Source: Tribonema minus
Taxonomy: Eukaryota; Sar; Xanthophyceae; Tribonematales; Tribonemataceae
Direction of reading: 5' to 3'
Length of the DNA stretch: 64,000 nucleotides
Assembly: GCA_017506865.1 (NCBI GenBank)
Contig: JAFCMP010000553.1
Location: forward strand, 372,001-436,000
In this document: positions 2,308 through 38,609 of the stretch, piece after piece
Layout of the letters: each line of letters opens with the position of its first letter
How positions within the stretch are numbered: the stretch's first letter is position 1
The notes under the pieces: generated by a model
Databases searched by the model: none
What the model was told of the DNA's origin: nothing
What the model saw: the letters and a program-made list of their open reading frames with translations, nothing else
Program-made: the position numbers and the translations under genes

Positions 2308-5300
2308 TTAGAAGAGGGTGGCCTTGCCAGTAGACTGCTCCAAGATGTTCTGGCCGAAGATCGCCGTCTGGCCGATGAGGCCGATGGACGCAAGCATGGC
2401 CAGGCGGCCGTTGTTCAGTTCCTTGGTCTGGAAGCTGTTTCAGGGGGCGCGGGGGGAGGGGGGCGGGCATTGACAGCAGAATGGTGAGCTTCGTGCAATG
2501 ACATACCTCAAAATGCGAGCTCTGTGCATGATGCACCAAGCTGTCTGCCTAAATTGCTCCAGGATGTTACAAAGATGTGGGAACTGGGTGCATGTAGCAG
2601 ATGTGTGCTGTCAATCGGTCTTGGAGACGTTGAAGGCAAAGCTAGAGCTGGTAAGTAAGCGTTGATACGCCCAGTTGATAAATTGTGAAGTGACCTTGCT
2701 TCCAACTGTTGCTGTTGCACAGTATTACATGGCACTGCAATTAATTAGCGTAGGTATCATAATCATGACCATTTCATGTACATCACAGCATCAGGAGGCT
2801 CAGCCATGCTGGTGATGCCAGCCCAGAGTACGAATCTAACATGATGGAACTAAACCCGAAGGGCAGCTTAGGGTACGAAACTGAATTGCTGATGAAGTCC
2901 GAGCTGAGTGGCCTACGGTAGCCGCCGATGCATTGTGATCATCATCATCATTATCAGCAGCCAAGGAAAACGACGAACTTGATGCAACCTGTCAGATAAG
3001 ACTACGGCTCTACTGTGTCACAGAGGCTGCGTGAGATCCGTCAGGTTGGCACTGCCATTGCAAGCACGCTGAGCTCTAACCCTAACCCTAGACACGCTTG
3101 CAGGATGCGCAGCATTCCGCTTCCACATGTGCCGACTGCTGAAAAGCAAGGACGTGCATGAGACTGTTCTTGAACTGCCCGATTGGTTGGTCGCTCGTGA
3201 ATCAAGAGTGTACACTAATTGCCATCATGCAACGCCAAAGTCACTCCAAACCCTAGAAAAGTTCCCCCTAACCCTACATGAGCCTGCCCTCCGAACCATT
3301 GCCCAGCCGACACTTTAAAATAGTGATCACAAGACTGCTGCACCGATAGTGCGTTGCGTCTCAAGCAGATGTGAGTGGCATTTGTAAGTGAGCAGTGACG
3401 AAACCCCTTCGAAATCACTGCTTGGAATGCGTCTCGTCCCCGCTGCAGCAGCACCGCTCCCTGACAAGATTTCTGCATCTTGCGCTTGCACATACATGCA
3501 TCCTCCAGACTCAGCGATTAACTGCTGTGCCATGATGCAGCTGCAGCCTGTTCTTACAAACTTGCGCTGGATCAGTCAGCCTACAGAAGCACTCAACACG
3601 CCCTGTACATGACCAGTACATATGCAGTACAGCGATGTTGGCCCTGGTCCACAAGGTTTCACCAGAGTCTATGGGGTGTAGACTATGCGCCCACAGAGAC
3701 CATGCACGCATAAGTGCGCGGCAGCTTGAGTACGCAAGGCGCACAGTCAGCACGCAGCTGCAGTACACAAAGAGTACACTGCCATGCCAACGGGCCAGCT
3801 GGAGTACACCTAGAGTACACTAACCTGCAAGGAAAGCTGCACGAGTATGCAAGAAGCACAGTACACAAAAAGTACAGTGGTCCAGCTGGAGTACACCCAG
3901 AGTACACTGACCTCTTCCACTGGTCATCCCCCTCGTCCATGAGGTCGCCCGAGCCGATGTAGTCGCCCGCCTGGAACCCCGGCCTCTCGCGGATCTTGGC
4001 CTGCACAAACTCGATAACGCCGCAGAACGCAAAGATCTGCGCCCAGCCCCAGAATGGTACCTGCCCCGCGGCCGCGAGGGGGTTGGTCCCTGCGTTGGGG
4101 AATACCGGGAGGTGGCACCCCGCCTCCGTGAACGCCCATCCGAGGACTGCCAGCATCGCCGTGCGGCCGTGCCTCAGCTGGAGAGATGGGGGTGCGGAGA
4201 GAGGAGGGGGATGCGTCAGCAGCGGCGTTGGCATGGTGTGGTGAGTCTTGGCTTCACCACTGAGCTAGAGGGCTTGTTTTTGTGTACACTTGGCAGAGAA
4301 GCCGTGGCCCCTTTTGGGTGCCAGATTACGTGCGGCCGTGCCGCAGCTGGCGAGGTGGGGCGCAGCGCAGAGGGGTGCTCAGATGGCTTGGCTTGTGTGA
4401 GAGAGACGTGTCAAGTGCTGTCTATGGTGCACCGTGTATGCAGGGACTGCAATCGAAGGGCTGCCAGCATTGTTGTACAGTGTAGTGACCAGCTGTGTGC
4501 ACGGGAGCGACAGCGGTGCGCACCCGCGAGCAGTAGCGACAGAGACGTCCGCCAAGGGCAGCCTGGCTGGGGCTGGTGCTCAGCTTAAGGGAGCCTATAC
4601 GAGTCCTCAAATCGAATGCTTATTGGCTGCTGCTGGAAAAATCATTGCGTCGGTGCAGAGAGGTCAACCCGATGAGAACCGGCGCACGCAGTCAGTCCCC
4701 ACTGTGCTTGCAACATCTGCCTGCCGCTTGACCACGGTGCAGCGCTGCAGCTTGCCTTCAATTAGATGCCATGGTGACATAGATCATCAGCTGCAATACA
4801 GCAACAGCATACATGGCGTACCTCGGACTCCCTGTACTTGGTGATAGTCTCAGGGGACGCCTTGCTGGCGAAGCCCAGAGGGTCGAAGAAGCCCAGGGGC
4901 GCGCTCACGCTGCACACAGCACAAAACAAACAAGGTGGTCAATAGCTATGTCAGGTTTGTCTGCATAATGCACATTGTGTGTTGCTGCTGCGTGCTGCTG
5001 AGTAGTCCATAGTATAGCAAAGTAATTGCCATTACTCATCGCTGTAGCAAGACGGTTGCGTTGACGCGCCGCCGAATGCAGCCGCATCCAAAGAAGCACT
5101 CCCGTGCTCCTCAGACCGTTGGCCACAAGTGCGAGCCGCTCCACGAGTCCTGCTGTTGCAACGTCTTCACCTCCAACGCTGCCGCTGCTTCACTTGCCGC
5201 ACGCTGGTGCGCTCGTTGCAGCAGATCCGCGAGACGAGAAGCGTCGCACGTCAAGCTGCTCTCTCACCAGCACCCGCTAGAATACGATGACACGCCGCTA

Positions 5301-6014
5301 TACTAGCGGGGCCTCTGCTATTGGCACGTCGCAAACCAGCTATTGCTATCAAATTACGCTGCCTAATTGCTCTGCATCTGTAATCACAAAGCCGCGAAAC
5401 TCACCCTGGCATCTCCTTGACGGACATGGTGACCGCGGAGCTAGCGGCCTTGACGGCCGCGAGCCTGGTGCCCATGAAAGGCGCGGGCGCGAACGCCGCG
5501 GCGCTGCAAGCAGGCGACAGGCAATGGGAAGTGACAGGCAGTTAGATGGCCGCAGCGCATCCAATTGACTGTGGGGGAGCCGTGGCTGCACCACCAAGCA
5601 GCACCGTACGCTGGCCACAGGGGTCTATAGCGGGACGACGAGCGTGTGCAGCCCCGTCCAGGGGAGGCAACGCTAGCACTGCGCTTGCAAGACCGGCGAT
5701 ACCTCCCGGCGGCAGCTGAACTCCATCCAACGTGTACATGAGCACACAGGCCTGTTGCAGGTGTCAGCGCTGCGGTCACGGCACACACACAGCCGCACAC
5801 GCTGCTGACGCCTGAAATCTCCTCCCCAGTCCACAGCAAGGCTTTGCGTGCCATCGGCTCCGGCTCCACCAGCGCGCCCGCTGTTGCTCCCATTGCACCC
5901 CCAAGCCAAATGTTCATGCACCCAGTAAGCGGCCGCGCCTGCACAGCTGCCGCAGCTGTCACGGCCATCAACTCACCTGGCAACCATGGCGGCGAGGGCG
6001 AGAGACTTGACCAT
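2308..6014 (-). CDS. Fucoxanthin-chlorophyll a/c light-harvesting protein
   Basis: This encodes a thylakoid antenna protein of the LHC superfamily that binds chlorophyll and fucoxanthin. Five exons join in frame: 5977-6014, 5405-5503, 4822-4909, 3912-4177 and 2308-2434 (618 nt, 205 residues), all with GT-AG introns. The N-terminus MVKSLALAAMVASAAAFAP is a signal peptide followed by an ASAFAP-type motif and a short transit peptide. This is the bipartite signal used for complex red plastids. The mature part has the chlorophyll-binding helix motifs ESELRHGRTAMLA (about residue 75) and KELNNGRLAMLA (about residue 168), each with the paired Glu and Arg ligands, and a middle helix VPFWGWAQIFAFCGVIEF. 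The length is normal for the family. The start is set by the signal peptide, since no other upstream Met fits. The first two codon junctions are phase 2 and rebuild Ser and Gly codons cleanly. Confidence 0.94.
3780..3915. repeat. Duplicated donor-side segment in light-harvesting intron 4
   Basis: About 60 bp next to the exon 4 donor are present twice. One copy (CCAGCTGGAGTACACC, then AGAGTACACTGACCTCTTCC) runs up to the real donor at 3906-3911. The other lies at about 3792-3830 and ends in AGAGTACACTAACCTGC, where the donor is degraded. A second copied edge in the same gene is the exon 4 acceptor side: GTGCGGCCGTGCCTCAGCTG at 4161-4180 is echoed by GTGCGGCCGTGCCGCAGCTG at about 4331-4350. Confidence 0.8.
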
Positions 6015-7480: not shown

Positions 7481-10400
7481 TCAACGCTCTGTGCGGCGCC
7501 ACACGGTGGCGTCGCTAACACCCCACTGAAACTTGCGTGCGTGCTCCCTAATCAAAAACCCCTCGTGGCGGCGGCTCTCCAGCTTGAACGCCCCCCCCCC
7601 CTCCATAATCTCCTTCAGGGCTTCAAAGCTGCCGCCGCCGCCGCTGCCGCCGCCGCCACCGCTGCCGCTGCCGCCGCCGCCGCCGCTACATCTGCTGGCG
7701 TCGCACAGCCACTCGCTGCGCGGCGTGTACTCTTGGAGCCAGCTGTACGGCGAGACGATGACGGCGGCGCCGCCGGGTCGGACGAGGCGCGGCAGCGCTC
7801 CGAGAAACGCGCGCGGCGCGGGCAGGCGGCACAGCAGGTTGCTCGCCAGGACGGCGTCGAACTGCGCGCGCGGGTAGGTAGGTAGGTAGGTATGGTGAGT
7901 GGGGGTAGGGGTATGTGCCGGAGGGTGCTAGAGGGGGGAGGGGAATAGGGGGGCGTGCAAGGGGCGTTGGGGAGTGGCTGTCTGTTGAAGTTTGGGTCTG
8001 TTTACACAATGATAGTAAGCTTGTGTATGTCGCCGAGGGGTATGTATGGGTGCCTTGACTCTCGCTGCCTGGAATCTGACTGCGTCGCCGGCTTGGGGTT
8101 TGTGCCATTCGCCAACATGGTATACGATGACAACTTGCAACTACGGCCATGGCCGTTGAGTGCACTGTTTATTGCGTGATGGCCATATTCAGCATCTGAC
8201 TTCACCCTCTGACACCTTGTTCTCACATTGAATTGCTTTGAACTCACATGCCTGAGATATGGTCTAGACATGTCAGATGCACGACGTCTGACTCCCACCT
8301 TTTGAAGTGGCCAATGCCGGCACCGCACTTGCACCTGCTACTAGAGTGTACTTGAAGAGTAAAACAATTGAAGAACTTGAACACTGTTGTCAGCTGCAAG
8401 CATGGCGGACTCCTGAAAATCAAAGAGTGGTAATTATGCACGGATGGCGTACCGCCCTGTGGGAGACTCAGCACATGTCACAAAACACCGCAACCCCCGA
8501 CTAGAAAGGCGTACGCATGTATGTATGTTACTCGTACCTGTCCCAGGGCGGCGATGTTGAGGTTACAGGCGTCGCCGCGCTCGAACTTCACGCGTGTGAC
8601 GTCCACGCCCTGCGGCGCCTTGGCCACCGCATCGCGGAAGACGTCTCCTTCGACGAGGCTCTTGTATGGGGCTTCGCCGCGCGTTCGCATCGCCTCCGCT
8701 GCGTCGACGAACGCCTGGCTGAAGTCTATGCCGACGACCTGCGCAACCTCAAGAGCATGTGTTGAGCTTGAGCTGTACAGTGTTGAACTTGAACTTGTCT
8801 ACGCCGACGACCTGTGCAGCCTCAAGAGCCTGTGTTGAACTTGAACTTTCTACGCCGACGACCTGCGCAACTTAAAGAACATCATGTGTTGACGTTGAAC
8901 TCTCTACGCCGATGGCCTGCGTAACCTCAAGAGGTTGAAGTTGGTGACGCTACGGGTACCGGCCTGATGAGCCATGTGGAAGCTCCCCGCATACATGTGA
9001 TAAGGAGCTCCGCCTGGGACAGTACATGTTCCAGGTCATGCCTGAGCAACGGTAGCCGCGAGTTCATCCTGCTTACCTATGTACATACACTTCGATCGGT
9101 GTATGGCTCATCATAATCGATATTCACAAGTATAGAGCATCATATGACCAAGCCACATGGCCATGTTGGCAGTACGCGTGCATGCAACTGTGGAGCAGCT
9201 CGGGAAAGGTGGTCACTGAGGCAGAGATACTCAGTACATGAGGGGAGCCTTGCGTGCATTGCCGGCCCAGCCATACTGTGACCTTAGCGCAGACGCTCAG
9301 CACCAGCTCCAGTGACAACGAACAAGAATTATCTGGTGTACTAATAACCGGCCTTGAGAAATGAGATGTCTCATGTGCATTTTAACGTAGCTGCTGATGT
9401 GAGATTGCTGGCGGCTTTCAGTTCGGCCGAGTGCCATGATTGCTACGCGCCCACACCTGGCCTCCGCATGAAGCAGCCTAGACATTCTGCGTTCCTTGAT
9501 GCCTGGTGGACTTGCTGTGACCATCCGCCGCACTTGCAATGACCATATGCAGCAATTGCAACCTCGGCTTGATGAAATTGTATAGAACGCAGTGCTAGGT
9601 TTAGTTGGTGGCACGGACAGACGCAGCGGTGCATCAGAACAGCCGCTGCTGTAAGGTCTCGCCCTCAATAGCATCACAGTATATTAGCACAAGAAGCGAT
9701 TACTCATGCAATTCATTTATCATTTCATACCTTACTACTTAGCATGAAAACTTCAAGTATGTACCTCATCAAAGCCGTGTGCCAGCTCCAGCGTAGCCCC
9801 CCCAACAGCACAGCCAACGTCCAGCGCTCTCAACCCGCCGCTGCCACCGCTGCCGCTGCCCCGGCCATGCGCTGCAACCGCTTCGATGCATAGCCGCGCG
9901 CATCTGGTTGGAAAGTTTATGGCATCTGGAGGTCCTGCTGCCCCTCGTGGCATTACGTCCTCGGCGCTGCGTGCATTACAAAGGGGATTGCACGTGTACA
10001 AGACATGAGGAATTAATGGCTGCGGGTGCAGAGGGGGAGATGCACATGACAGCTTTTGTTTGAAGTTGCCATGCTGCAGGTGCTGTGTGCGGCACAGAAC
10101 GTCAACTTCCAATGAAGCAACAAAGCTGTGAAAACTTGGAAGTTATTCATGTGATTGTGACTGAGTGCCTGCCAGAACTGTACATGTACAGCAATGTGTC
10201 AGAAAATAGGGTCAAAGAGTCAAACTCATGGATGATCGAATCCGCGCATGCGCAGCTCATGTGTGCAAGTGTTGCTGAGGCAGAATGATCGCACCCGGCG
10301 AGAAGGATTTCATGTTACCAGCCGGAGCAGATCCGAGTCAGTCCGCAAAGTTCTGTACATCAAAGCCACTGCAATTCATGACGCGTACATATGCAACGTA

Positions 10401-10583
10401 CCTGCCAAAGTGAAACTGCAGGTACTCGTCCACTGCTCTTGAACTCTCATACACCGCACTGCCACTGGCAGTTGTGCTCCTGACCGTGGACATGGTTGCT
10501 GCTAAGGTCCTTGCAGCAGATGGTCCGCACAACAACGATGTCCTGTATCGTGCGGCTGCTCGCCCTACACCAGCCACAGTCAT
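7481..10583 (-). CDS. ovoM: 4-mercaptohistidine N1-methyltransferase-like (ovothiol pathway)
   Basis: This is an S-adenosylmethionine-dependent methyltransferase of the family that methylates 4-mercaptohistidine to ovothiol A, often fused to OvoA as its C-terminal domain. Four exons join in frame: 10402-10583, 9765-9966, 8538-8738 and 7481-7861 (966 nt, 321 residues). Family blocks seen in order are YESSRAVDEYLQFHFGSAED, NFPTRCARLCIEA, the SAM-binding LRALDVGCAVGG, FDEVVGIDFSQAF, FDAVLASNLLCRL, SPYSWLQEYTP, and the C-terminal FLIREHARKFQWGVSDATVWRR. A Gly/Ser-rich insert (about 20 residues, encoded by the GC-triplet run at 7630-7684) replaces a short loop after SEWL. The first 30 residues are Arg/Ala-rich and may be an organelle presequence; Met31 is an alternative start. 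No OvoA sulfoxide synthase lies nearby. The family call rests on remembered motifs. Confidence 0.85.
8725..8945. repeat. Four tandem copies of an exon edge in the methyltransferase intron
   Basis: The acceptor side of exon 3 (read on + as TATGCCGACGACCTGCGCAA) recurs three more times in the intron: CTACGCCGACGACCTGTGCA at about 8799, CTACGCCGACGACCTGCGCA at about 8849, and CTACGCCGATGGCCTGCGTA at about 8905. TTGAACTTGAAC-type spacers separate the copies. Only the copy at 8725-8760 joins the coding frame. Confidence 0.9.
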
Positions 10584-11964: not shown

Positions 11965-11998
<34 letters not shown>

Positions 11999-13368: not shown

Positions 13369-14660
13369 ATGGCGTCGTTCAAGCACACGGAGCGCACTTC
13401 GCGTGCACCGCCACACGGACACGGAGGCCTGCGGCGCGTGGGCAGGGCAGTCGCTTTTGCCATCGCGCGCGGCAGGGGCGCGCCGGCCAGTCTGGGCAGC
13501 GATGCTCAGCCGCTCACGAGCGAGGTCGCACAGGTGATCATGAATTCATCATTCGTAAATTCACCAACCGGATGAACATGAGTTGATTGGCGAATGCGGG
13601 CTCACTATTCTGACAGCTGCTGCAAGCTGTGTGTAAGAAGTACCTGAAGTGGGAGTCTCGGCAGCGATGCTCAGCCGCTCACGCGCAAAGGTCGCGCAGG
13701 TGACCATGAAATCATGGATGAATGAATGAACGATGCATTCATGCTGATTGCGTGAGGATGGGCGAGTGAAACACGAGTTCAACGGGCAGTGTGGCATGGC
13801 TCATTGGTCTGACACATGCTGCAAACTGTGTGTAAGAGGTGCTTGAGGTAAGACTCTCGGCAGCGATGCTCAGCCGCTCACGCGCGTGGCCGCAGAGGTG
13901 ATCATGAATTCATGGATGAATTGACTGCGCCATCATGCTGCCGTCGCAGCGGCAGCTGAGTACACCATGTCTGAGCGGTCTCCATACCTACATGCGCTTG
14001 TGTTGAACGCTGCTTTGTGCTTGCAAACCACATCTGCAGCTGGTGGCGCGCCAGCCGTCGCGGCGGCAGCTCGGGGACGCCACCCCTGAGCCTAACTCTA
14101 ACCCTACCCTAACCCTATCCCTCTATACCTACATGCACACACTTGTCTTGACTGTTACCTTTGTGTTGGTGAACTGCATCTGCAGCTGGTGGCGCACCTG
14201 CCGTCGCGGCCGCAGCTAGAGTACACCATCCCTGAGCCTGACTCTAACCTTAACCTCACCTTAATCCTGACCTTCTATGCCTACCTACATACACTTGTCA
14301 TTGACTGTTGCCCTTGTGCTGGCAAACCGCATCTGCAGCTCATGGCACAACTGCCATAGCTGCGGCAGCTCACGTATGCCACCCCCGAGCGGGCTCCATA
14401 CGTACATACACTTGTGTTGAATGCTGCTTTATGCTTGTACACCGCATGTACAGTTGGTGGCGCGCCTGCCGTCGCGGCGGCAGCTGGAGTACGCCATGTT
14501 TGAGAAGTATACCTACATACACTGTTGTTGACTGCTGTAAGAGAAGTACACCTGCATACACTTTTGTTGACTGCTGTAACTGCTTTATGCTTGTCATCTG
14601 CAGCTGGTGGCGCGTCTGCCATCGCGGCGTCAGCTTGAGTACGCCATGCCCGAGCGATCT
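13010..14660. repeat. Tandem arrays of exon-edge copies at the 5' end of the large gene
   Basis: Three arrays follow one another. At about 13015-13360 a CCAGGG(T)...CAGCAGC...CTTCCGGCG unit occurs three times. At 13492, 13655 and 13856 the exon end GGCAGCGATGCTCAGCCGCT recurs, each time followed by a possible GTGA donor and a GATCATGAATTCAT-like intron start. From about 13940 to 14650 the exon start CTGCAGCTGGTGGCGCG ... GCAGCTGGAGTACGCCATG occurs six times at about 100-150 bp spacing (near 13940, 14036, 14184, 14334, 14450 and 14602). The sixth copy is the only one that runs on into a long open frame. One copy carries an in-frame stop (GCCATAGCTGCGG). Confidence 0.85.
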
Positions 14661-17600
14661 CTGTATAAGCCTGGCACCAGCATCACATTTGGCAGTACCA
14701 TTACACTGCAAGCCAAGCACGGCGGTGAGCAGCACACTGAGTAATATAGCGTTAACACTGGGTTGGGGTTAGGGTTAGGGTTGCGGTCACTGCCTGCAGC
14801 GGTCAGTGATCACAGAGCACCCTACAGATTGGGATGTCAAGGCCGCCCCAATTACCGTCGTATGTAAGTCTACACATGTGCATGCCTGGTACTTCAGATA
14901 TGATTGTCGCCTTCTGCAGCATCAGGGGGTGCAAGCCGAACACAGTGTGCAGCTCACTGAGTGCATCAACGTCAGCAATGCCTGATGCAACAAACTGCCA
15001 TGTGTGACGCACATTAGCATGTGAACTTTCGCCGTGATCTGCCTTTCTTGGGCACAGTTTGTCTATGTTCGCAGCCGTTGCCTCTCAACCCTAGCCCTAA
15101 TCCTGCTCTAACGCTAACCCTAGGCTTCATACGCACCTCTACTCGCCGAACCCCGAGGACTGGGCGTCCACTCTTACCCTAACCCTAAACCCTGTCTGTC
15201 TCTAAAGCAGAAACTGTGTGCTGCTGAGGCGTTCTCGTCTGCGGTTGCCAGTGTTCCTGCAAAGCAGTGCCTCACCCCCGCAGCAAGTACCTCATTTTGA
15301 AGCGGCACCTTGGAGTTGATGTGCAATATGTGCGTGCAGTATGCTGCTTCCACAACAGACCTGAAACGCTGCCCACGCACCTTCGAGTGCTTGAGCTTGA
15401 CTTTCCGCACTCGCTTCTCGCACCTCGTGCGGGCCTGCGCCCTCGCCGCATAACTTCAAGTACCTGAAGTTGGCATTCATCATGTTCGTGCAGGCCACCT
15501 CATGTGCTCCGTCGGCCACCCCGCGCGCGCCTGCGCCCTCTCCCGCATAACTTCATCCACTTGAAGTTGACTTTTGCCTCATGTCATGTTCTGTGCAGGC
15601 CACCTGATGTTCTCCGCCGGCCACCCCGCGCGCGCGTGCGCGCTCGGCGCGCAGCCCAATGCGCTCATGACGGTGTGGAGCCTGGGCGCGCAGGAGGGCG
15701 CAGCGCCGTTGCGCTACGGCGACGCCATCCTGCTGCAGGTTTGTACATACCTGAGCTAGGAGGATATGTTCAGGTGTAAAGTGTTTGTGTAGTGTAACGG
15801 GTGCGGAGCCTTCGTTGCCGCTGTGCTGTCAGACGCCATCCTGCTGCAGGTGTGTGCGTGCCTGCCCGGTCTGTCTGTACATATCTAATTCATGAAGAGA
15901 CGGCTTCGCATGCACACCCCCTGCATGGACACCGACGCAGAGTCATCTGCATCTACCATATCTCAAAGTACCGTACTGATATGCCAGCTGTGCGGCATGG
16001 CTCTCCTTTTAAGAGGTTTTAATAGGGCAATCGCATACCCTACAAACCCACTCATGCCTCTCCGTACATACCGTATACACCTATGCAGGTTGGGCGGCAC
16101 GAGGTGTTCGGCTCGAGCCTTAGGTGTGGCTCCTTGCATACCTTGTGTACCCACTCATGCCGCTCGATACATACCGTATGCACATGTATTATACATACCC
16201 CTGTACAGGTGGGGCAGCACTAGGTGTGCTTGGCTCGAGCCTCTTTGCTTGGCTCGAGCCTCTTTGCTTGGCTCGAGCCTCTTTGCATACCCTACATGCC
16301 CACCTCATGCCTCTCGATGCATACCGTGCATACCCAATACAGGTTGGGCGGCATGAGGTGCTCGGCTCAAGTCTCATGGTAAGGCCCTCCAGCGGCACAG
16401 AGACCAAGGCCATCATTAGCGCGGCTGAGGTGGGCACGTGCCACAGAACAGCGCGCAAGAGGTATGTATGTACCGTATAGTTGAGAAGTTGAAGTATGTG
16501 CTCATGGTACTTTTTGTGGATTCTCGCTTAGGGCGCGAAAGAGTACATCATGCGTGTACGTTGGAAGCATATAGATGTTTGATGGGTGCCCCAAAGACAG
16601 AGCAGTGATTTGAGGTGATGCTTTGAGCGGCAGAAGTAAAGAATGTTGGCTTTGCTTTCTTATGCGTGCTTATGGGGCACTCTTGGGCTACTGATGCTTT
16701 CGCAGCACGTTCAACAGCACTGTGCGCAGATGTCCACTTGTTTTCATGACATGTGTACAAGTGCTGAATATTTTCTGAAGTAGCTTATTCGGAGTTGCAG
16801 CTGGCGATAGTTTTGGAGCAGGCTTTCACGTATTCCTTTCTTGTGTAGGTAATGGTAGTTGCATCTGCACACAGCCGCCCAGTGGCGGATGCAGGGACCG
16901 CAAGCAGCTCGGCCAGCAGCAGCAGCAGCACCAGCACCAGCACCAGCACCAGCACCAGCAGCACCAACACCAGCAGCACCAGCAGTCACAAAACTGCTTA
17001 ACCTGCTATGCATGTCCAATTTTTGTCATAGTCCTACGTGTGCAGTTGTTTCATCGCGAAGGATGCGGCAGCGTAACACCATGAATGAATGACTTGATGA
17101 CCTGCAAAAGTGAATGGCAAAGATTGACAAGCTCATACATCTGCCCGTAACTTGCTCGCCATGCGGGCATCCGCAGCGAGATTGTTCCAATGCTGCGCTG
17201 CCCCTATGTGGCTTGTACTGTGGTACTTGCGGTACTTTATTTACTTGCGCTTGAGGGGCGGAATTCCTATGAAAAATGCAAGATATGCAGCTCTTGTGCT
17301 AGTGTCAAGCATGTGCTGTTGTACGGATTTTTGAAGCTGACATTTCCACATGGTTGCTGATCGCTGCTGCAGCGTGGGAACTCCTGTGAACATCAACTTC
17401 CGCTCCAAGAATCTCGAGAAGGCCAAGCACCTGGGCCGCTGGGTCATCGCGCGTGCACGCACACGCAGCAGCGCTCAGGTATATAAGGGCGCCGCTGCAC
17501 TTACTTATTTCCGCTTGAGCAGCAAAACCCCTATTTCACATCACGTGATAGCTGTACTGCCCTGCCGACACCTGCTGTGTAAATCTTCAACTTGAACTTG

Positions 17601-20600
17601 CTGTGCGGCTGCGTCGTCGCACGCAGGCGCACCCGCAGCAGCGCTCAGGTACTGTGCGGAGCACTGCTGCACACTGTCTTCACAGTCTGACGCACTCTAG
17701 TGCTAGAAGTGCAGATTCAACTTTGAACTTGCCCAAAGGCAGCTCGTGCGCATGTGCACTTGGGGCAGCGCTCAGTCGTTTCGGGGCGCCGCTTTACTAC
17801 CTCAAAAGCATTGCACGTCACCAGTGACGTGTCGCGCGCAACTTTAACTTGAACTCTGGGCTTGCTAAGCATCCGACTTCATTAGTGCATCGCCGATTGC
17901 AGAGCTTGACTCGCCACTAAACTCTATCATTCCACATTCAATGAACATCAACAGGTGACGCGCCTGCTTCAGCTGAAGCTCACACGCTCCGGGCTTCCAT
18001 GGCATGGCTCGCCCTTCAGACTCCGAGCGAAGCTGCAGAGTGCGCGCCTGGGGGGAAAAGAGATTACGTAGGCAGTGTTTGTCGCGGTTTGAAGGGGGAG
18101 GCAGCGCGTCTCACCAACAATACTTTATCATTCGTGATTGGCCGTACCCATCATAGCCCTGACGTGACCCTGACCATGACCCTAGCCCTAACTGTGCGCG
18201 TTCCAGCATTGATACACCGCAGTGACCGATGCGATGTGGGTGTGCTCATCCTTCCTCAACAGCTGTGGGGCCGCACCTGCTTCAACGGGGTGCAGTTCAG
18301 GCACGTCACCGATACCGCACTTCAAAGGTTAATCAGAACTTCAATCCACGCCGTGCGCTGAGCGCTAACATCACCTCAAATACCTACCTACCCCAGGGCG
18401 GCGAGGTGTGCCACATGGACGAAATCGTCCTGCAGCAGCAGCGGCTGAGCCTCGCATCGCACGGGCCGAGCACTGCCAGCCTCATCTATTAACCTACCTA
18501 CCCCCAAGGCCGTACTACTGAGCGCTGACACCTCCTCACCCTCCAAATTCACCCATGTACCTACCTACCCCAGGGTGGCGAGGTGTGCCACATGGACGAG
18601 ATAGTTCTGCAGCAGCAGTGGCTGTGCCTCGCATCGCACGGACCAAGCACCGCCAGCCTCATCCCATGCGGCAGCGGCCTATCAGGCCTGGCATCAACGG
18701 CTCAGCAGAAACAGGGGGGCAAGGGGGGTGGGGGTACCCCCGGATCTGCCCCCGCGTCCGCTTGGGGGTGGGAACCCCCCATGTCAGATGAGATGGCATG
18801 CATGTGGAGGGTGCACCTGGTGTCGATGCCGGTGAGTACAGATGAACTGCTATGTGTACCGTGCAGTACATGTGTATTTTTGAGCGTACAAGGGCAGTCA
18901 TGGAGTTGAGGCTGTGCACCACAATGATGGCTAGCGTGCATGTGAAGGGTGTACATGGTGTCGCTGCCGATGGCTGCAGCTGTACTGCTGAGAGTACATG
19001 TGTACTGCTGGTTTGTGCCCTCGGAGCAGTTGAGTTCACAGATGCATGTTCGTCTCAATGCCCTACAAAGGGGCCTAGGAATCGTCACTGCACTGTGCAG
19101 GTGCATGTGGAGCGCGATGGCACGTCTGTCTGCAGCATCACCAGTGTTCAAGCTCTTAAGACGCAGCGCAGGCTAGGTTGCTGTGCACCCTGAGAACAGA
19201 CTGGACACCTGGCCTCTCATGGGGAGGTCATAAACACAGCTCCATGAGTGCAAGAGCATGCTGCCGACAGCCATGCTGACGTTGATCACAGTGCATACGG
19301 TCTCCCAGCAAGGCGGCTCATGACCTCTTGACGCTTGTCACTAGTCCACATGAAGCCTGAACACCCCTTGAACCCACCCCCAAGCCTACCAAAAGTGATG
19401 ACTCTGACCCAGCCCTATCCCTAACCCTATCACTCACCTCACCCCAGGCCATAGCTGGTCCTAAGTTAATGGTTTGATGCTCAATTTGCTTCTGCTTGAG
19501 GGGCGGAAACCCTATCACAGCGATGTGTTTCTACTTGCAAGGTACGTACTGCAAATCTGCTTGTCCGTGCCGTCACTTGCTGCCAGGTGGACACGCTTGC
19601 CTAGATTGCGGCGCAGGACTCCAACCCTAACACAGACCCTAACCCGACCTTGGCCCTACTCTATGTATGTAATTGCCAGGTGCAAGCGCCTAATTAGGTT
19701 GCGGTGCAGGACTGAGCTCTAACCCTACGACCCACATCAACCCTAAACCACCCTAACCCTTTGACCAATCCTAACCGCAACCCTGTATCTAACTTTAAAC
19801 CACTTGATGCAACTGCCAGGCGGACAGGCTCACAGAGGTGGCGGGTCAAGAATGTGACTGCGCAGGTTACCCTAACTCTAAACATCCCTAACCCTCTGAC
19901 CAATCCTGACCCTAACCCTGACTGTTTGCCGCACTCATGTAACTGCCAGGTGGACACTCTCACAGAGGTGGCGGGCCAAGAGCGTGACTGCGCTGCACAA
20001 GAGCAGCTGGCCATCAGCAAGAGCCGGCGACTGCAGCGGCACGCCGAGCGGGTGGCGCGCGCGGCGGAGGCGCGCGCCGCCGCTGCTGCGCGGCCGTTGT
20101 CTGCATGCCAGGTCAGTCGCACTTGACATTGCCATGCAACCACATAGAAGTATTCAAGTTGCACTAAGTAGGCTGACGCTGCTGCTGCTGCTGCTGCTGC
20201 CGCTGCGCAGCCGTTGTCAGCATGCCAGCTCTTCCAAACACACACTCAACTGATGTACTTTGCGCGCCGCCGCTGCTGCGCGGCCGTTGTCAGCATGCCA
20301 GGTCAGTCGCGTTTCATACGTGCTGTCCAAACACATACTTGGAAGTACTCAACTAAGCTGACGCTGCTGCTGCTGCGCGGTCATTGTCTGCATGCCAGGT
20401 CAGTCACACTGTACACTGCTGCGCGAACACACATTGCACCATGCTGGCGCTGCTACTGCTGCTGCTGCTGCTGCTGCTGCAATACGCACACTTGACCAGG
20501 CTGATCTCGCTTGACTTGACCACACATGAGGGGGGAAGCTCTTCAGCAACAGTGCATTTGGCGCATTTGAACCCGAGAAGAACGCGTGCCCAATCATCTC

Positions 20601-23600: not shown

Positions 23601-26600
23601 CGTGAAACGCCTTGCGCATCCAGGCACGCCAGTGTCTGCAACTTTTTTGTTGCTGCCGCAGCAAGCGCCTTTTGCGTTCAGGCATCTTTGAAGTTCACGC
23701 GGGAGCGTCACCTGCCTGCCGTACACCCCATGAGACAGGTCTGAAAGTCACTGTTGGCAAGCACAGCGGCCACAAACATCAGCGCTCGCAATGCGCCGCA
23801 AGTGCCGCGCTCAGCGATCCAATGCATACCAACCCTAAGCCTTGCATGCTCGCGCTGCTGCTTTGCAAACTTCAACTCTACCCCCTCTAGGACGTTGGTC
23901 CCGACAAGTTTGCGGAAATACTGCGCATCGTCAGGGCCATGCGCGTGATAGCGCGCGCCGTGCGACGGCTGCACGCGTCCAAGTGGCCGCGCCGCTTCGT
24001 CAAGCTCGACGCGGAGGCCGTTTCAAAGGTGACTCACTACTTGAACATCAAGTACCTTCTCCTGAAATATCACATGGTGCAGTGCAGAGTGCACACGTAT
24101 TGTTGATGGGGGAGCCGTTTCAGAGGTGACGTTCCTACTTCTGAATACTTCCATCTGCTGGTGCATGGCTGCATGCATTCAAGTGGCCGCGCCGCTTCGT
24201 CAAGCTCGATGCGGAGGCCGTTTCAAAGGTGATAACCCAACTTCAACTACCTTTTTTGATAAATCGAATGATGCAGTGCAGAGTGCACGCATGAGTCCGA
24301 TGCGGGAGCCCTTTCAGAGATGACGTTCCTACTTCTGAATACTTCCATCTGCCGGTGCGTGGTTGCACGCCTCCGAGGTGGCCAAGCTGCTTCGCAAAGC
24401 TCACGCGGAGGCCGTTTCAAAGGTGACGCACCTACTTCTACTTTGCTGTGCTGCTTCATGGAACTTTGGTTGTGCGGCGCAGAGGGCGCGCTTTACGCTC
24501 ATTTCGGAAGCCGTAACGCGACGTTCCCACTTGTGCACATTTCCATCCGCCGTCGCCGTCGCACAACTGCTTGCGTCCATGTGACCGCGCTGCTTCATTG
24601 AGCTCTCGATGCGGAAACCAGCTCAAGAGTGGGTGACGCAACGGCGCAACATTGTGGACGGCAGCGACCTGTCGGCATGTCCCATAATCTGCGATTTGCA
24701 AAGCAGTATGAGCGTGAAATTAGCCACCACCTCCGTTCTGTTGGTGGCACATGTGACGAGCGGCATGCCGTGACTGGCCAGACAGAGCACAGCTCAGCAG
24801 CATGACTCAGCACACACACTTGCTGGATCCTTCAGATGCTTACCAGCAGCCTGCGGGTCAGGTAGCAATGGCAGAAGGTAGCAATGGCAGAAGGGGCTTT
24901 GAGGCGCTAAGCAAGCGCACATACGCATGGCAGCCAGCCGCCCAAAGAATCATTCAAATCTCCTTGACAGCAAAGTCTTGACAGTACCGTCAAGCGTCAC
25001 AGATGGGATCAGAGACCCGGGGTCTAGAGGTGCCCTCAGATGAATCGTGCTGTGGCGGCATGAATGTACTTTATTTACATCCGCTTTAGGGGCTGAAACC
25101 CTGTAAAAATGCAAGAAAGGGGCTGAAACCCTGTAGAAATGCAAGATGCGCAGCTCTTGTGCTTGTGTCTAGCATGTGCTCGCAGCGCGTGTGTCAACGC
25201 AGCTGAAAGCAACCCTCACCCTAACCGTAACCTATTTGCACGCTCACTGATCGCCAGGCCGTCTACAGCTGGGCCTTCACAAAGACTGCGTCCTGATGTA
25301 TGACAGATTTTTTGCATTGTGCATGCCCAGCATCATCATGGGCTCAGTCATTCACCGTGCAGCCCGAGCCCGAGACACCAATCGAAATCCACACCACGCT
25401 GAACATCGCGGCTGCATGAATGACGTGTGTATACATGCCTACCCCACGTGGCGGCCGCGCAGGTGGAGGCCGTGTATAAGATCAAGGAGGAGCGGAAAGA
25501 GCAGGTGAGCTGGCTGAGCGTTGCTGCATTTTTCCGCAGTATCCCTTACTTCAACACCATCTTTGCGCGTGCAAGCCGTTGCATGTACTGCAATGATGCT
25601 AGAGTGCAAGTCCTGCACTTTAACTGCAATGGTTTTGAAGTGCAGGTCGGAGGAGCAGGTGAGCTGGCTGAGCGTTGCTGCATTTGTCCGCAACTGCTGG
25701 CCTGTTTTCGGTGGCAAGGCTCCTTCGCAGTTGTCAAACGCTGCAGCTGCAACGCTCGGCTCAGTTAACAAGTGCCTACTCAGTTAGACCTGACACCAGT
25801 AATCAGAAACGATACATGTCGCGCGCTTTAACATCATCTTTGCTCGTACATGCCGTTGCGCTGCGTTTGTGCCGCGCTGCATGCGCAGCAGCAGCGTCGC
25901 TCGTCGTCTGCTGCGCCGCCGCTGCGCAATCAATCACTCGCTCCGCCGCCGCTGGCTGAGCCATGTCGCAAGCACCAGTCGCAAGCCGGGCGTGGCGCGA
26001 GCACGTATGTGCAGCACCGCTCAAACGTATTGTGTATTTTGTTTTAATGTTCTACTACGTCGAAGTACATGTATAAAGCGGGGGTCGACGAACGCTTTCA
26101 TATAATGATGGCATGGCGCCTGAAGCAAGTGGAGGTGCCCGCTGCTGAGCGCTGTCGGTGTTCCGCACAGTGTAGTTAATGTAGCCCATTTGCCGGCGAA
26201 TCTCAACACAGTGCAATAGGCCGGGCACCAATGTGAGCCAGAAGTCATGCAGTGGCAAGGGTGGCTTGGCGCCACTGGCACAGCGCAACGAGCAGCAGCG
26301 CTCAAAACGCGCCCCTTCTGTCCGGTAGACTGTGGGACTGAATTCTCAAAGGATAAGCATGGCAGTGGCAGACCCGCCGAATGCTTTTTTAACAGCATTG
26401 CTTGAACCAAATCTCAATGTTCAATGGTGACATGCCACCCCCGCACACCGCCCCGCTGCGCAGCCTGAGTCTATGCTGTGCCGCGGCAAGCGCGCCTACG
26501 AAGTGGCATACCCACCGCATGCTTCATTGCATAGCAATGATACTTAAACCTAACTTCAACGGTGACTTGCCACCCTGCTGCGCAGCCGGACTCCATGCTG

Positions 26601-29600
26601 TGCCGCGGCAAGCGCGTCTACCTGGCGCTGCTGGCGGAGCGCGCGCACGCAGCAGCGCTCAGTAGATCGCCGCCGCCGCGTCCGCGCATGATCATCCGGC
26701 GCCCGTCGACAGCGCCCGTCGTCAGAGCAAGTTACGCTGTAGATGCGACGCCACCGCCGCCGCCGGCAGCAGTCGCAGCGGCGGCGATGGCATCCTTCAA
26801 CACGGAAGAGGGGCGGCCCGTGCCGGCTGCCGTCGCGGCCGCCGCCGCCGCCGCCATCGCCGCCGCCGTCGCCAGGGACAGCAGCTTCGCGGTGCTGCGC
26901 CGCAAAGCGCTGGCGCATGCGCACGCAAACGCACGCCCTGTAAGCGCGCCCGCGCAGAGGCGTGCCAGCATCGCCATCGCCAGCGACATGAGCGCGCACT
27001 ACCCCATCGCCGCCGCCGCCGCTGCCGCCGCCGCTGCCGCCGCCGCCGCCATCGCCACCGGTGCCGCTGCCGCCGCGGCGGCCGCACGTGCTGGCGGCAG
27101 CTCTGCCGCTGATTCAGTGGCAGAGCACATTGTTACAGTTGGCGCTGCAAGCGCTGCTGCTGGTCGTGGTGCAGCCAAAGGGCTTGCCGCTGCTGCTGTT
27201 ACGCCGATGACCGCTGCTGCCGCTGCTGGCGGCGCTGGCGCCACGGCGCGTACCGTCGCTGCTGCTGCTGGACCAGCTGCGTCGCCTTCGCTCGATAAAA
27301 GTACTGGTGCGTCCGCCGCAACAGCTACTGCGAGCCGCTCCTGTGCCACAGGCAGTGTCAGTCGAAGCACTGGTACGAGCAGCACCGCTGCTGCTGGTGG
27401 CGCTGGCGCAATGCCTGCTGTCGTTGCACCTGCGAAGAGTGGCAGTGCTGCTGCCGCCGCTGCTGCCGCTGCCGCCGCTGCTGCTGCGGCAGCAACACTA
27501 CTTCCGCCCGCTGCAGCAGCAGCACCCCTGGCCAAGCATCGGCAGCAGGGTTCGCTCCTCACCGAATGTAGTACCAACACTAGGGCCAAGCAGTCTGACA
27601 GCTCAAGCACCAGTGCTCAGTCGCAACGGCAGCAGATCCCGCCCAACTCAGAAAGTGCAGTGTCGGAAGCCTCGCAGCCGAGCAGTGCACAAGACGGCAG
27701 TGATGTCAGCAAATCTCTGCAAGGGGATGCCCCCCCGAACGAGCGCGTACAGCTAGCGCCGACCATTGGTGACATGGGGCCAGACTCTCACCCCAACATT
27801 CAGGAAAATCACGGTCACAACACCGCCAGCGCCGCCACCGCCACCGCCACCGCCACCGCCGCCGCCGCCGCTGCCGCCGGCTGGCAGCGCAGCGCTGCTG
27901 CACGGCTCAAGGTCAGGCACAGCGTCCCTGACAACTTCTATGTGAGCGCTGAGCAGGAGGGCTCGGTGGCGCGTGCGCGCGGCGACGGCGGCGGTGGCGC
28001 AGTGCTGGCGCGCAGCAACACGTTCTCGAGCCTTGACGCGCTGCTGAGCGCTGGCGTATCGGAGCGTCAACTTCAACTGCAGCAGCAGCAGCAGCAGCAG
28101 CAGGCGCCGCCGCGCGTCCTCACCACCCCCCGCAGCGGCGGATTGCACGTGCAGAGGCACGACTCAATGCGGGGGGGGACTGCGGCGCGCGTCAAGCGGC
28201 AAGACTCGGGACTCACTCACGCCAGCGGGCGCGGGTCACGAGTCGTCAAGGCGGGGCAAGACCTGGCGCCTGAGGGGCGCGCTTCGCAGCTGACGCGGCA
28301 GGGGTCGGGGCGCGTGCTGACAGAGCACGCGTCGCAGCTGAAGAGGCAGGGCTCAGGGCTGGCGGCAGGGGGGCGTGGGCCGCAGATTGTACGGCAGGAC
28401 ACAGGGCTGACGCCGAAGGCGCTCGAGGAGCGGTACAAAGACAGCAACTTCAAGGAGTTTGTGGACAGTGAGACGGCGCCGGGGGGGTGGCTGATGGTCC
28501 TGAAGGAGGGGGTTGTGGAGCTCGTGCAGGATCTGGAGACGGCCAAGGCGCACGCGACGCAGCTGCAGTACATGACCGGGTGAGTGTACTGCATGTGTAC
28601 TGCATGTGTACTGCATGTGTACTGCCTGTCAAGACAGTGCTTGATTTTAGCACATGACCTCGAGGTGTACATCTTCGGAAGTATTTACATACTTGCGAAC
28701 AGGGTACTCAATGTGCAAAGGATCCGTGCATGCATGCTCATACGTGCATATAGTTTACTTGATGTACAAAGAGCATGTGCGTGTTCATGCATTACGAGGC
28801 ACCCCAGCAACTGCTTTTCGCACGTCAAGCATACATGGAATGAACTGCGCCAACAGAAAACGAACTGCGTTTGTAAGACTATTGCCTTGATGCGACTGAC
28901 CCCGTGCTCACAGCAACCAATGTATAGCATGACCAGAACATGAATTGCGCAAGACTACATGTAGTCTTCAAAATGAAGGTGTGACTGGCACTGTTCTCAC
29001 AACAAATCATGTGTGTGCGCGCACTGCAGCGCTGAGCGCGAGAGGCTGAAGCAGCGGCGGCGCACCATGCAGCGCGCCAAGATGATGAAGCTCAGGGTCA
29101 GCATGATCCACGCAGCGGTGGCAGCACACAGGAAGGGAGGGCCAGCACCCGAAAGCACCTCCCGCAAACAGGTTCGCTGCAAAGGATGCCGTTCGTCGAT
29201 ACATGGACGGTGATGTTGTTTGTGCCGTGTGCGACCGGTTGCACTTGCATGCATATAGGTCCATTTCATCCGCAGCAGTGCTCTTTACGCAAGCGGCAAC
29301 ACACGTACATCTCCGATGACAAGGTAAAACCAAAACATGTCTCTCTGGAGTACTACTAGTACTTCTTGAAGTACTACTGGTAGCAGGCTGACATCCACCA
29401 TCTGAGCTCTTTTGCGCCCTAAGCGAGAAAAAAAATACCACTGCTCTTCGCATTCACTCACGCCGATCTCACTGCGCACCGCGTGCGTGCCATCGCTTGC
29501 TCCCCACTTGCAGCGACGCTCATCCGCAAACGACGTCACGCAGACGTGGCCCGCAAAACAGCCCCGCGGCAGCGCTCGCCCGCGCGACAGCGCTCACGCC

Positions 29601-31614: not shown

Positions 31615-34600
31615 TCAGACGCTCCCCTTGTAGGTGTGCTCGTGCAGAAAGTTGAGCAGGTAGATGGCCTCAGAGCACAGCACCAGCCAGTGCTTGAAGC
31701 TCTTGAGGTTGGTGCTTATAGTGGTCCACTCCGCCGCTGGTATGGCCTTGTGCTTCGCCTGCATCAGTGCTCAGACGAATTGCAAACAGAAATGTCAGCC
31801 CCACATGAGTTTAGTTGATGATTGAATTTTGCATGTGTAAAGATACTACAAAAAAGTTATTTAGTTGATGATTGAATTTTGCATGTGTGAAGATACTACA
31901 AAAAAGTTATCGAGGACTTCAAATTGCAGACTAGGGTGCTGCAACAGTACAAATTTTGTAGGAACACACATGACCTCTGTCAGAAGTAGTGCAACAGGGT
32001 ATATTTAGACACCACTTCGATATGCCGATAAGGTCCGCAATGTATGCGAGTCTCACTGAGACGCTCTACTGCAATGCATGGCAGAAACCAGCGCAACTGG
32101 AAGAAAGCGTATTTGCACTACTGTGGCACGTCGGAAGGCACACTGACACAATGACCTGCAGTACTCAGATATATCTCACAGTATAAATCGTTGAAGCAAA
32201 GCAGGGTCTTGAGTGACACCCACCCCAGGGCACAAATGCCATTTTGTGCTTTGCTTGATCACGGTTGTCAGGCCGCATGGTGGTCATCACTAATCAGCAA
32301 TATACACCAAGTGAACACAACAAAGCAATATACACAAAGTGACCAAAACCAAGCAAGCTGAAGTAGTGAAAGACATCCCAGACCTGCTGGCTGGTACGTT
32401 GCGACGGAGACCTCAGAACGCACGAGCTTGTCAAGGTAACAGCGCATGAGGCACCAATGGAAATCCATGCCAAGGTACAGATGCGACCTGGAGTTTGCGT
32501 GATCAGCATTGTCAAGATCCACGGTCGCTATCACTACACATACGAACTGACCGCACCAAAGGGCTGAACAGAAATGAGATGCTGTTACCCTCTGCAGCAG
32601 CAGTTACAAAATTAACCTGCTTGTCGGGGTTATAGGTGCTTTTATACATAATATAGAATTAGCTCCAAAAAAAGGTGGTCAAATTGTTCGTGCTGCTGTG
32701 ACCAAAAGAAAGGGCTGAAGTGAAGTGAGATGCTGAGTGACCCTCTGCAGCAGCAGTTACGAAACTCACCTGCTTGTCGGGGTGGTAGTGCATGACGCAC
32801 GTCAGCAGCGTGCGCTTCAGCTTGTCAGGCTCCGTGGGCCCCATGACGTGTGCGCTGTTCCTGGGGTTGAAGTCAGAGCCAGGGTTAAAGTTAGGATGCG
32901 TGCACGGAGGGTTTAAGTTCCAAGGTGTTCAACTTCTCGGCGTGCAAGTTCCGGGATGGTCAACCTGAAACAAAAGATGTTGCCGGAAATTAATTTAATG
33001 GACGGATTTCTTTACAAAAGACGCATGTGCTTCCTTCAGCTTGCGGTCCTGAAGCAACTGAATTTCCGAACCAACTGCATTTCTGAAACAGATATCCAGG
33101 GGTATTATAAATTGGAGTGTGTGTTTCTGGGGCATACCTGGGCGGGTACTTGGCGTAGAGGTGCGCGATGAGCCTGCGGATGCGGTGCACGTTGGCGCTG
33201 CAGTTGTCCTTGGCAATGCGCTGCAGCTCCTCAATCTCCACCTGCAGGTTAAACACCAGTTTGCAGATCAAAGTTGCAACATACTTCTTCCCCGAAGTAG
33301 CGCAAAAAGTGGCCATACACGCATAAATCGTAGCGTGAGCACAGGAACCTGACTGGTCAAATCGCAGGCAACAACACGGCAGATGACGTCTCTGGTGTGT
33401 GTTTGCAGGTGTGCCTGGAGTGATCCCATCACGTGCACCCTGACGTTGCTACAGGGGAACATGAAAGTGCAGTAGCATACATGCGTACCTTCGGGCGTGC
33501 TTTCATCACTGCCTCCTCCCCATTGCTCAGCGCGTCCGCACTTCTGGCGGCGCACTTCAACGATCTACTCCGCGCAAGCTTCAATGCGAAGTTCAAGTAG
33601 TGGTACACTCAGGGAATGCTTCCGCAGCAGACAGCGTGCCGCCACTCGAGCCCGTACGCCAAGGATATTGATGAGATGAATGCTTACACACCTTGAGGTC
33701 TGTCTTGATGGCTGCCTTCTCCTCATCGCTCAGCGCGTCCGCACTTCCAGTGGCGTGCTTCAACTAGCTACTCCGCACATGCTATCTACATCGAGCACAT
33801 GTACTCAGGAAATACTTCCGCAACAGACCAGACAGCGTGCCGCCCTTCGAGCCCATACGCCACAATTTGATTAGTGATGAGTTGAATGAATACATACATA
33901 CCTTGAGGTCTGTCTTGATGGCTGCCTTCTCCTCATCGCTCAGCGTGTCCGCAGTGCCCGCCGTGCCCAGGCGCTTGCACTTGTCAAACACGCGCAGGGC
34001 GTCGTTGAACCACCCCACGGAGGTCAGGTCGCGCGGCGCGAGTGACTCTCCGAGCTCCATGGCCTGTTGAAATTGAAGTTGAGGGGCGCGCACCACACAG
34101 GCCTCAGCTGCTTGTCGGCAATCTCACTCAAGCGCATGACGTCAGCGCAAAGCACACTAAGCTGAGCTTTACTAGTGCATGGACCTCAATGAATATCAAC
34201 TGCAACTCCAACCTTCATTATGGCTGTGTGATGCGCATTTGTCTTATGTTGCGCCAGTGCAAATCGAAACAACTGCAAAGCAAGCATGCGCCAAATGTCG
34301 GCCTGTCACTAATTAACCTACCTCATAGCAATGTGCTTCGTGAAGATAGTGCATCTGTGAAGCCCGTTGTCCACATTACACCACGCGCAGGCTTTGTGTA
34401 CAGCCCATATGATGAAGGTAATGTGAACACAGTAACATCTTACACGATTGCCATTTGGTGCATGCACATGACATTTCCTCATCACACCTTCAACTTCAAA
34501 TACATCAGTGCGCTATCACCTTGGCCTACTTTAATCAAAGCTCAGTGGAGCCTCCTGTGCATGCAGCCCAGCAGACCACAACAGGCGCTGACCGTCTCGC

Positions 34601-35156
34601 TGCACTGCATTTTCAATGAACATTGTTCATGGCCTTCTCCCGCAGGCGCAGAACGTGTCCGCCATGTGCCTTTGTCACAACTTCAACCTCATATAGTCTC
34701 AGCACACACACCGCGAAGCCCTCTCATTCATGATGACCTGCCTTACTTCATCTACGCATGCAACCCAGTGCACTGGCTATATATGTAGCTGCCCCTGACC
34801 TTCTCGCTGCACAGCATGGCCTTCTCACGCAGGCACATGACGTCGGCGTACAGCACGCTGAGCCGTGCCAGCGCGTGCGCCTCGCCCTCAATGTCCTGGC
34901 CACGCGTCAGCAGCACCGCCTCCTGCGCAGCAGCGCCAGCAGAATGGATGCGAGGCGAGTCAGATCGCGGTGCTACATTCTTCCTCAACTTCAAATTGAA
35001 TAAACCAGCAGGAAAGATGATCCACGGGTCTAGTTATGGTGCTGACAATTCCTGGCTGCTGCGGGTTTGAAGTTTGATGCAAAGGCATGCGTGCCGCGGC
35101 ACGGGTCGCTTGCGCTCTGTCACTTCGCCCCCAGAGAGGTCAAGATCCTGCTTTGC
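31615..35156 (-). CDS. Protein with HPD J-domain-like C-terminus (5' end not found)
   Basis: Exons with matching phases are 34800-34922, 33902-34063, 33138-33241, 32770-32860 and 31615-31758. A short candidate (35124-35156, weak donor) lies upstream. The visible protein, about 215 residues, begins with a helical TPR-like stretch (ALARLSVLYADVMCLREKA). It continues through DLTSVGWFNDALRVFDKCKR and ends with KLKRTLLTCVMHYHPDKQ and WLVLCSEAIYLLNFLHEHTY. The HPD tripeptide after a helix of the right length is the signature by which DnaJ proteins stimulate Hsp70 ATPase, here at the C-terminus rather than the usual N-terminus. This suggests a co-chaperone-like role (inference). The upstream exons are not found. 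The region where they should lie holds a retroelement relic and a poly-G run. The stop at 31615-31617 is clear. Confidence 0.65.
31811..31910. repeat. Two-copy tandem duplication
   Basis: A unit of about 49 bp (AGTTGATGATTGAATTTTGC, ATGTGTAAAGATACTACAAA, AAAGTTATTT) is present twice with one base difference, in the last intron of the J-domain gene. The near-identity implies a recent duplication. Confidence 0.95.
32570..32800. repeat. Ghost exon 5' of the HPD exon with destroyed donor
   Basis: The segment GACCCTCTGCAGCAGCAGTT, ACGAAACTCACCTGCTTGTCGGGGT at 32740-32785 includes the donor of the HPD exon (ACTCAC on +). It is copied at about 32587-32632 as TACCCTCTGCAGCAGCAGTT, ACAAAATTAACCTGCTTGTC. 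In the copy the donor has become ATTAAC, which is unusable, and the coding match ends after GTTATAGG. Confidence 0.9.
33480..33965. repeat. Three tandem copies of the exon 33902-34063 end
   Basis: The exon edge CCTTGAGGTCTGTCTTGATG GCTGCC...TCATCGCTCAGCG occurs at 33901-33950 (functional), at about 33690-33741 (near identical) and at about 33485-33535 (decayed). The spacing is about 205-210 bp, and each unit also contains ATACTTCCGCAGCAGACAG-like sequence. In the outer copies the match stops inside the exon. Confidence 0.9.
34090..34900. repeat. Copies of the exon 34800-34922 in the adjoining intron
   Basis: The coding stretch CGCAGGCACATGACGTCGGCG, CAGCACGCTGAGC (34832-34864) is echoed at about 34126-34160 as CTCAAGCGCATGACGTCAGC, CAAAGCACACTAAGCTGAGC. 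The stretch CTGACCTTCTCGCTGCACAGC, ATGGCCTTCTC (34796-34827) is echoed at about 34586-34640 as CTGACCGTCTCGCTGCACTG, ATGGCCTTCTCCCGCAGGCG. The copies are decayed and carry no usable splice site. Confidence 0.75.

Positions 35157-38578: not shown

Positions 38579-38609
<31 letters not shown>

Follow-up and report, generated by a model that had tools for sequence, protein, structure and literature searches.

Exon-edge copies in introns of Tribonema minus: probable products of undirected local tandem duplication filtered by selection

Results

Genes and direct repeats of the window

The window analysed here is a stretch of 64,000 nucleotides of the nuclear genome of Tribonema minus (C550:372001-436000 in a 158-Mb assembly of 554 contigs), in which segments crossing an exon-intron junction recur inside the adjoining intron; we call the intronic copy a ghost and the junction that it repeats the real copy. 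An LHC gene (fucoxanthin chlorophyll a/c protein) lies on the minus strand at 2308-6014, and its five exons splice into a protein that matches a T. minus database protein without a difference over 205 residues; through this match its junctions were fixed independently of the repeats. The junctions of gene d (about 14.6-28.6 kb, plus strand) were set by homologues from Ectocarpus, Scytosiphon and one further source, with the exception of acceptor 14604, which was placed by eye and reading frame without homology; the models of this gene are trusted only at exons matching homologues, and many short low-scoring exons were discarded. Those of gene e (31.6-34.9 kb, minus strand) rest on an open frame and consensus sites only. 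The search with gene d returned four matches, none near-identical, and no Pfam match above the cut-off was obtained for the gene e protein, for a 186-residue part of gene d or for its Ectocarpus homologue.

Self-comparison of the whole window under lax scoring (+1/-1, cheap gaps) yielded 44 direct-repeat pairs at most 3 kb apart. Because this scoring ran alignments on through unrelated sequence, counts are taken from a stricter scoring, which gave 39 pairs within 1-36000, with offsets of 73-678 bp and identities of 67-98%. All 12 intervals in which a sequence-only reading of the window had reported repeats hold at least one direct-repeat pair in one list or the other; the pairs at 3760-3913, 19739-19993 and 26448-26621 were found by the stricter scoring only, while a weak pair in the last interval (34117/34818) appears under lax scoring and is absent from the stricter list. 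Repeats cover 13.6% of 1-36000 as against 4.8% of 36001-64000, and each of three dinucleotide shuffles of 1-36000 in 300-bp blocks had zero repeat coverage. When a junction is counted as spanned only if a repeat copy has at least 5 bases on each side of it, 10 of the 28 junctions of the three genes are spanned, donors and acceptors on both strands being affected, as that reading had said. Other arrays of this stretch, at 25088-25146, 30751-30980, 31810-31910 and 34954-35254, meet none of the modelled junctions.

Ghosts lie on the intron side and decay there

LHC genes of the same genome were modelled with our own spliced-alignment program, using a profile built from 120 LHC homologues, checked on the LHC gene of the window and then extended with 43 first-pass models. 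The 48 loci modelled, part of 92 matches, were selected by Pfam match and not by their repeats. After exclusion of introns shorter than 120 bp, weak splice sites, introns with fewer than 8 flanking profile positions and duplicate loci, 74 of the 170 modelled introns remained, in 38 loci. Ghosts occur in 8 of these 74 introns, and the claim that almost every intron-rich gene carries them is not confirmed in this sample.

Together the window (15) and the LHC loci (12) provide 27 real-ghost pairs, in which about 80-560 bp separate the near-identical real and ghost junctions. Every one of the 27 ghosts is on the intron side: donor ghosts are downstream of the real site in 13 of 13 cases and acceptor ghosts upstream in 14 of 14. 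The exon sides of the pairs are 89.6% identical and the intron sides 84.1%, so that exon-anchored sequence mismatches at about two thirds of the intron rate (10.4% versus 15.9%).

Changes were polarised in LHC genes outside the window, with the nearest paralogue as outgroup, over 566 exon sites; 11 of the 12 LHC pairs were scored, at 6 genes, a pair with fewer than 15 exon bases being skipped (L019). Two of the 6 genes contribute several ghosts each, and pairs within one gene are not independent. On the ghost side 37 of the 566 sites have changed, spread 15:9:13 over codon positions 1, 2 and 3. On the real side there are 6 changes, all at third positions (0:0:6), which amount to at most 5-6 events, since an L013 gene with two ghosts enters the count twice; 2 sites were undecided. 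Thus LHC ghosts decay neutrally, like non-coding DNA, and the real copies are constrained. The earlier proposal that one copy is kept while the others decay is borne out by this test, and its suggestion of splice-site replacement is not: where an outgroup exists, it is the outer copy that is conserved and the ghosts that decay.

Repeats show no significant preference for splice junctions in the LHC sample

The copies had been described as centred on, or anchored at, splice junctions. In the strict LHC set, repeats span 9 of 148 junctions, where circular shifts of the repeat maps give an expectation of 7.6 (P=0.36). Since the strict filter may discard junctions that bear ghosts, sets with looser filters were added; the loose set gave 15 of 192 (12.7 expected, P=0.28), and junctions judged singly gave 12 of 187 (11.2 expected, P=0.45). 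The anchoring claim is therefore not supported in the strict set, and no looser set shows a significant excess either. A modest excess, which reaches about 1.4-fold in a relaxed set considered below, may nevertheless exist and is compatible with the data.

Repeats are common away from junctions. The LHC loci hold 67 repeat pairs (median offset 164 bp, middle half 99-343), of which 22 are intron/intron and 10 lie with both copies outside the models, and repeat coverage extends to 448 of 5543 positions sampled in intron interiors. How far a repeat reaches into the exon and into the intron differs widely between copies. A set of 30 kinase loci, which includes the near-duplicates L041 and L043, has repeats over 0.9% of the Pfam-matched coding sequence and 5.1% of the flanks, and in 3 of the 30 a repeat joins the coding match to the flank.

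Ghost-bearing introns are longer

The paralogues L012 and L013, whose aligned coding pieces are 84-93% alike, differ in a unit formed by an acceptor and the 63 exon bases next to it, which is present once in L012 and three times in L013; the intron measures 660 bp in L012, without ghosts, and 966 bp in L013, with two. This is the single pair examined closely. Across the LHC sample, introns with ghosts have a median length of 817 bp (n=8) compared with 426 bp (n=66) for the others (one-sided P=0.007). Both results favour the proposed growth of introns through repeated local duplication. Five of the 8 ghost-bearing LHC introns occupy the same position as ghost-less introns of paralogues, and the other 3 have no partner at the same position.

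L013 also repeats a later donor junction, outside its model and the counted set, at 1811-2386 on the gene strand: at least three copies are present, with CATCAG followed by GT or GC, one of them having lost its GT, and a fourth, partial copy lies downstream. We had considered 1811-1860 of L013 as ghosts of the coding end without a splice site, and rejected this, as the segment has no frame stop and ends in CATCAG|GTGCGC, and is thus an unmodelled donor. The helicase gene L065 (C157:538601-541000), which came from the Pfam table and was picked because of its repeats, shows one donor unit in four clear tandem copies, all with ACAG|GT.

Five LHC paralogues (L070 and L074-L077) have coding exons that are mostly 90-97% identical and introns that are unalignable at the threshold used, which we read as fast turnover of these introns.

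AG|GT words and an intron of L077

Priming of the duplications at AG|GT words had also been proposed. Matching runs across the two ends of the 74 LHC introns average 2.34 bases for an intron's own ends and 2.33 for swapped ends (P=0.40), and runs of 6 or more number 4 and 2.4, respectively. Own ends being no more alike than swapped ones, the priming idea finds no support in this comparison of intron ends, the duplication breakpoints themselves not having been mapped, as the copies are too decayed for their edges to be placed exactly. Repeats of AG|GT or of a target site at the ends of LHC introns were dropped as a candidate signal.

A 298-bp LHC intron (L077:1550-1847) is missing from the four close paralogues L070, L074, L075 and L076 and has GCGCAGGT at each end. 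Introns of L026 and L029 share its profile position and phase, a genome search with it matched only itself, and no self repeats were detected in L077. The shared position and the lack of genomic copies weaken the case for a fresh intron gain; gain, or loss in the other paralogues, is possible.

Discussion

We consider it probable that exon-edge ghosts result from undirected local tandem duplication filtered by selection, rather than from a mechanism directed to splice sites. Local tandem duplications would be frequent in the non-coding DNA of T. minus, largely regardless of splice sites. Those falling within coding exons would mostly be purged by selection, and those wholly intronic or intergenic would be neutral. 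A duplication crossing an exon edge would be tolerated, as normal mRNA could still be made through the outer junction and the inner copy would become intron; the conservation of the outer copy suggests that it is the outer site that the spliceosome uses. The inner copy would then drift neutrally in an intron lengthened by one unit, and further unequal exchange could increase the copy number. The molecular cause would be slippage, microhomology-mediated repair or unequal crossing-over. As regards local (segmental) tandem duplication itself, both neighbouring direct repeats and a related locus without the extra copy (L012) are found. Pairs at exon edges would stay recognisable for longer, since one partner is under selection. 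This slower decay makes ghosts at junctions conspicuous and can explain the impression gained from the sequence alone without any machinery linked to splicing; it would also leave some junction excess even without targeting.

Several observations weigh against undirected duplication filtered by selection. In genes d and e of the window, 7 of 16 junctions are spanned versus 3.2 expected (P=0.037), a post hoc result from genes picked for their repeats, and the relaxed LHC set points in this direction too, with 14 of 168 junctions versus 10.0 (P=0.12). GT or AG is retained in 26 of the 27 ghosts (12 of 13 donors and 14 of 14 acceptors), so that loss of these dinucleotides is not the common fate that the sequence-only reading took it to be. 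Unpolarised mismatches between real copies and ghosts, the window included, show an excess at third positions (34:29:67), and bases without a ghost partner number 13 on the exon side and 131 otherwise, a count that leaves insertions in ghosts aside. L070 has a ghost and yet the shortest intron of the five paralogues. Finally, avoidance of exons by repeats, clear in the kinases, is weaker in the LHC genes: within their exon interiors repeats cover 143 of 2852 positions (5.0%), or 71 of 2852 (2.5%) when pairs with both copies exonic are set aside, and some of this coverage comes from edge-crossing copies that reach into the exon. Wholly exonic LHC pairs number seven, at offsets of 640-1440 bp, and may reflect internal similarity of the LHC protein.

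The two junction counts above would favour a machinery that starts duplications preferentially at exon-intron junctions (at AG|GT words, R-loops or paused splicing), with introns growing from their edges. We regard this as improbable. The strict and loose LHC sets and the junctions judged singly stay close to expectation, the extents of the copies into exon and intron vary, many pairs are intronic or outside the models, and intron borders carry no repeat signal of their own; the slow decay of exon-anchored pairs would in any event give a small excess.

Retained GT/AG, the scarcity of exon-side gaps and the third-position excess would instead suit copies kept by selection as functional alternative exon edges or as decoy splice sites, an idea to which we attach low credence. 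The polarised changes in LHC ghosts are spread evenly over the codon and are about six times as many as in the real copies, and gaps of 1 or 2 bases occur on the exon side of pairs of L017, L013 and the gene d donor 24028. Moreover, at a ghost change of about 6.5%, chance alone keeps GT/AG in about 23.6 of 27 ghosts, and 26 is unremarkable. The unpolarised third-position excess is at least partly due to changes in the real copies, and in those counts a single real copy is in some cases paired with several ghosts. Weak constraint may act on some ghosts of the window.

A gain of introns at AG|GT through duplication or insertion, either as Rogers-type tandem genomic duplication or by introners, could be argued from the L077 intron with its matching ends and its absence from close paralogues. 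It is very unlikely as an account of the ghosts: the ones studied sit in pre-existing introns, loss elsewhere could explain the L077 case given the introns of L026 and L029 at the same position and phase, that intron is single-copy, no self repeats were detected in L077, and the own ends of the LHC introns are no more alike than swapped ones. False expansion of tandem copies during assembly, for which the 554 contigs and some near-duplicate stretches might speak, is extremely improbable, as the copies differ by 2-33%, the ghosts have changes of their own, unlike false joins, and many contigs are affected. The near-duplicate contig stretches (C90/C179, C223/C144 and C296/C490; L041/L043, for instance, share 95% identity over 3.8 kb) are haplotypes or segmental duplicates.

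Of the published cases compared, the nearest is the potato RdRp gene, in which a new intron and an added exon arose from a tandem duplication that crossed an intron-exon boundary; an 83-bp duplication within intron 1 is also noted (Ma, Lan and Niu 2016, PMC4974935). There, as in T. minus, a local tandem duplication crosses an existing junction and carries splice signals with it; in T. minus, however, the extra copy is absorbed, the old intron only grows, and several gene families are involved. The Rogers model, as described in PMC4974935 and PMC3443670, derives intron gain from a duplicated exon segment containing AGGT; through the same sources, Hellsten et al. 2011 and Gao and Lynch 2009 belong with this type of gain, and the review PMC3443670 lists tandem duplication among the mechanisms of intron gain. 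Tandem duplication supplies intronic sequence in these cases as it does here, although in T. minus neither a new intron nor an AGGT-bounded unit was found. Short direct repeats of 4-30 bp near intron splice sites (Rogers and Bendich 2025, PMC11782384) likewise lie at intron borders, but they pair both ends of one intron, whereas the T. minus units, tens to hundreds of bp long, are copies of one and the same end. Repeats running exactly through both borders did not exceed chance in the 74 LHC introns, a narrower test than that of PMC11782384. Introners (Gozashti et al. 2022, PMC9860276) also add intronic DNA, in their case as elements that spread by copying to many genes, where they form new introns; the L077 intron, the sole one tested, is single-copy. 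We found no report in the open-access literature that describes serial copies of exon edges as something introns show in general.

Ghosts offer a readable record of intron lengthening, in which the selected reference copy allows dating and polarising, unlike repeats confined to introns. They would also be natural decoys, as conservation suggests that only the outer junction is used, and could bear on the rules of splice-site choice. They call for caution in gene annotation, and against taking repeats at splice sites as the sign of a splice-directed mechanism. It is conceivable, though doubtful, that duplication across exon edges is a main route of intron growth in T. minus, stocking introns with near-perfect decoy junctions that would be rejected through exon definition or the order of synthesis and would form a reservoir for splice-site replacement or new introns.

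Features of the window

Table 1. Exon-edge copies and related repeats at junctions of the window
Feature	Position	Strand	Basis or remark
LHC gene exon 4	3912..4177	-	Model equals database protein
Acceptor 4177 of LHC exon 4, ghost at about 4329-4360 in the upstream intron		-	Repeat 4160-4191/4329-4360
Repeat just within LHC intron 4, by donor 3912	3761..3913	-	About 2 exon bases; not counted as spanning
Acceptor-like site of an unnamed gene at about 8739, three more copies ending near 8811, 8863 and 8916	8739..8920	-	Tandem Repeats Finder (54-bp unit x2.9) and sequence view; junction by eye, without homology
Gene d unit of acceptor and exon start, acceptor taken as 14604, four upstream ghosts, all with AG	14039..14661	+
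Gene d acceptor 15599, ghost acceptor near 15494	15421..15645	+	Junction from homologues and repeat
Gene d donor 15738, ghost donor at 15849	15720..15865	+	Junction from homologues and repeat
Gene d acceptor 16343, ghosts near 16089 and 16209	16033..16385	+	16209 copy by eye; the two settings of the spliced alignment gave 16089 and 16343
Gene d donor 17478, ghost near 17648	17431..17672	+	Junction overlap of 3 bases (strict scoring), hence not counted
Gene d acceptor 18574, ghost acceptor near 18397	18371..18663	+	Junction from homologues and repeat
Gene d donor 24028, ghost donors at about 24228 and 24422, period about 200	23966..24442	+	Homologues and repeat
Gene d donor 25504, ghost at 25658 with 97.5% identity	25499..25692	+	Homologues and repeat
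Acceptor-type repeat ahead of the long exon of gene d	26448..26621	+	Stricter repeat; junction by eye only
Gene e donor 32770, ghost donor at about 32617	32557..32783	-	Open frame/consensus and repeat
Gene e donor 33902, ghost donors near 33692 and 33489, period about 203	33487..33958	-

Interstitial telomere-like words (CCCTAA/TTAGGG) occur at 12335-22851 of the window and elsewhere, at 25 sites in 323 kb versus 4.6 in mononucleotide shuffles, 17 of the 25 being inside the window. A tie between these words and the duplications was considered and discarded, with 6 of the 25 sites close to a repeat and 5.2 expected. At 38148-39256 of the window there are tandem repeats of 27-114 bp that are G/C-rich and possibly coding.

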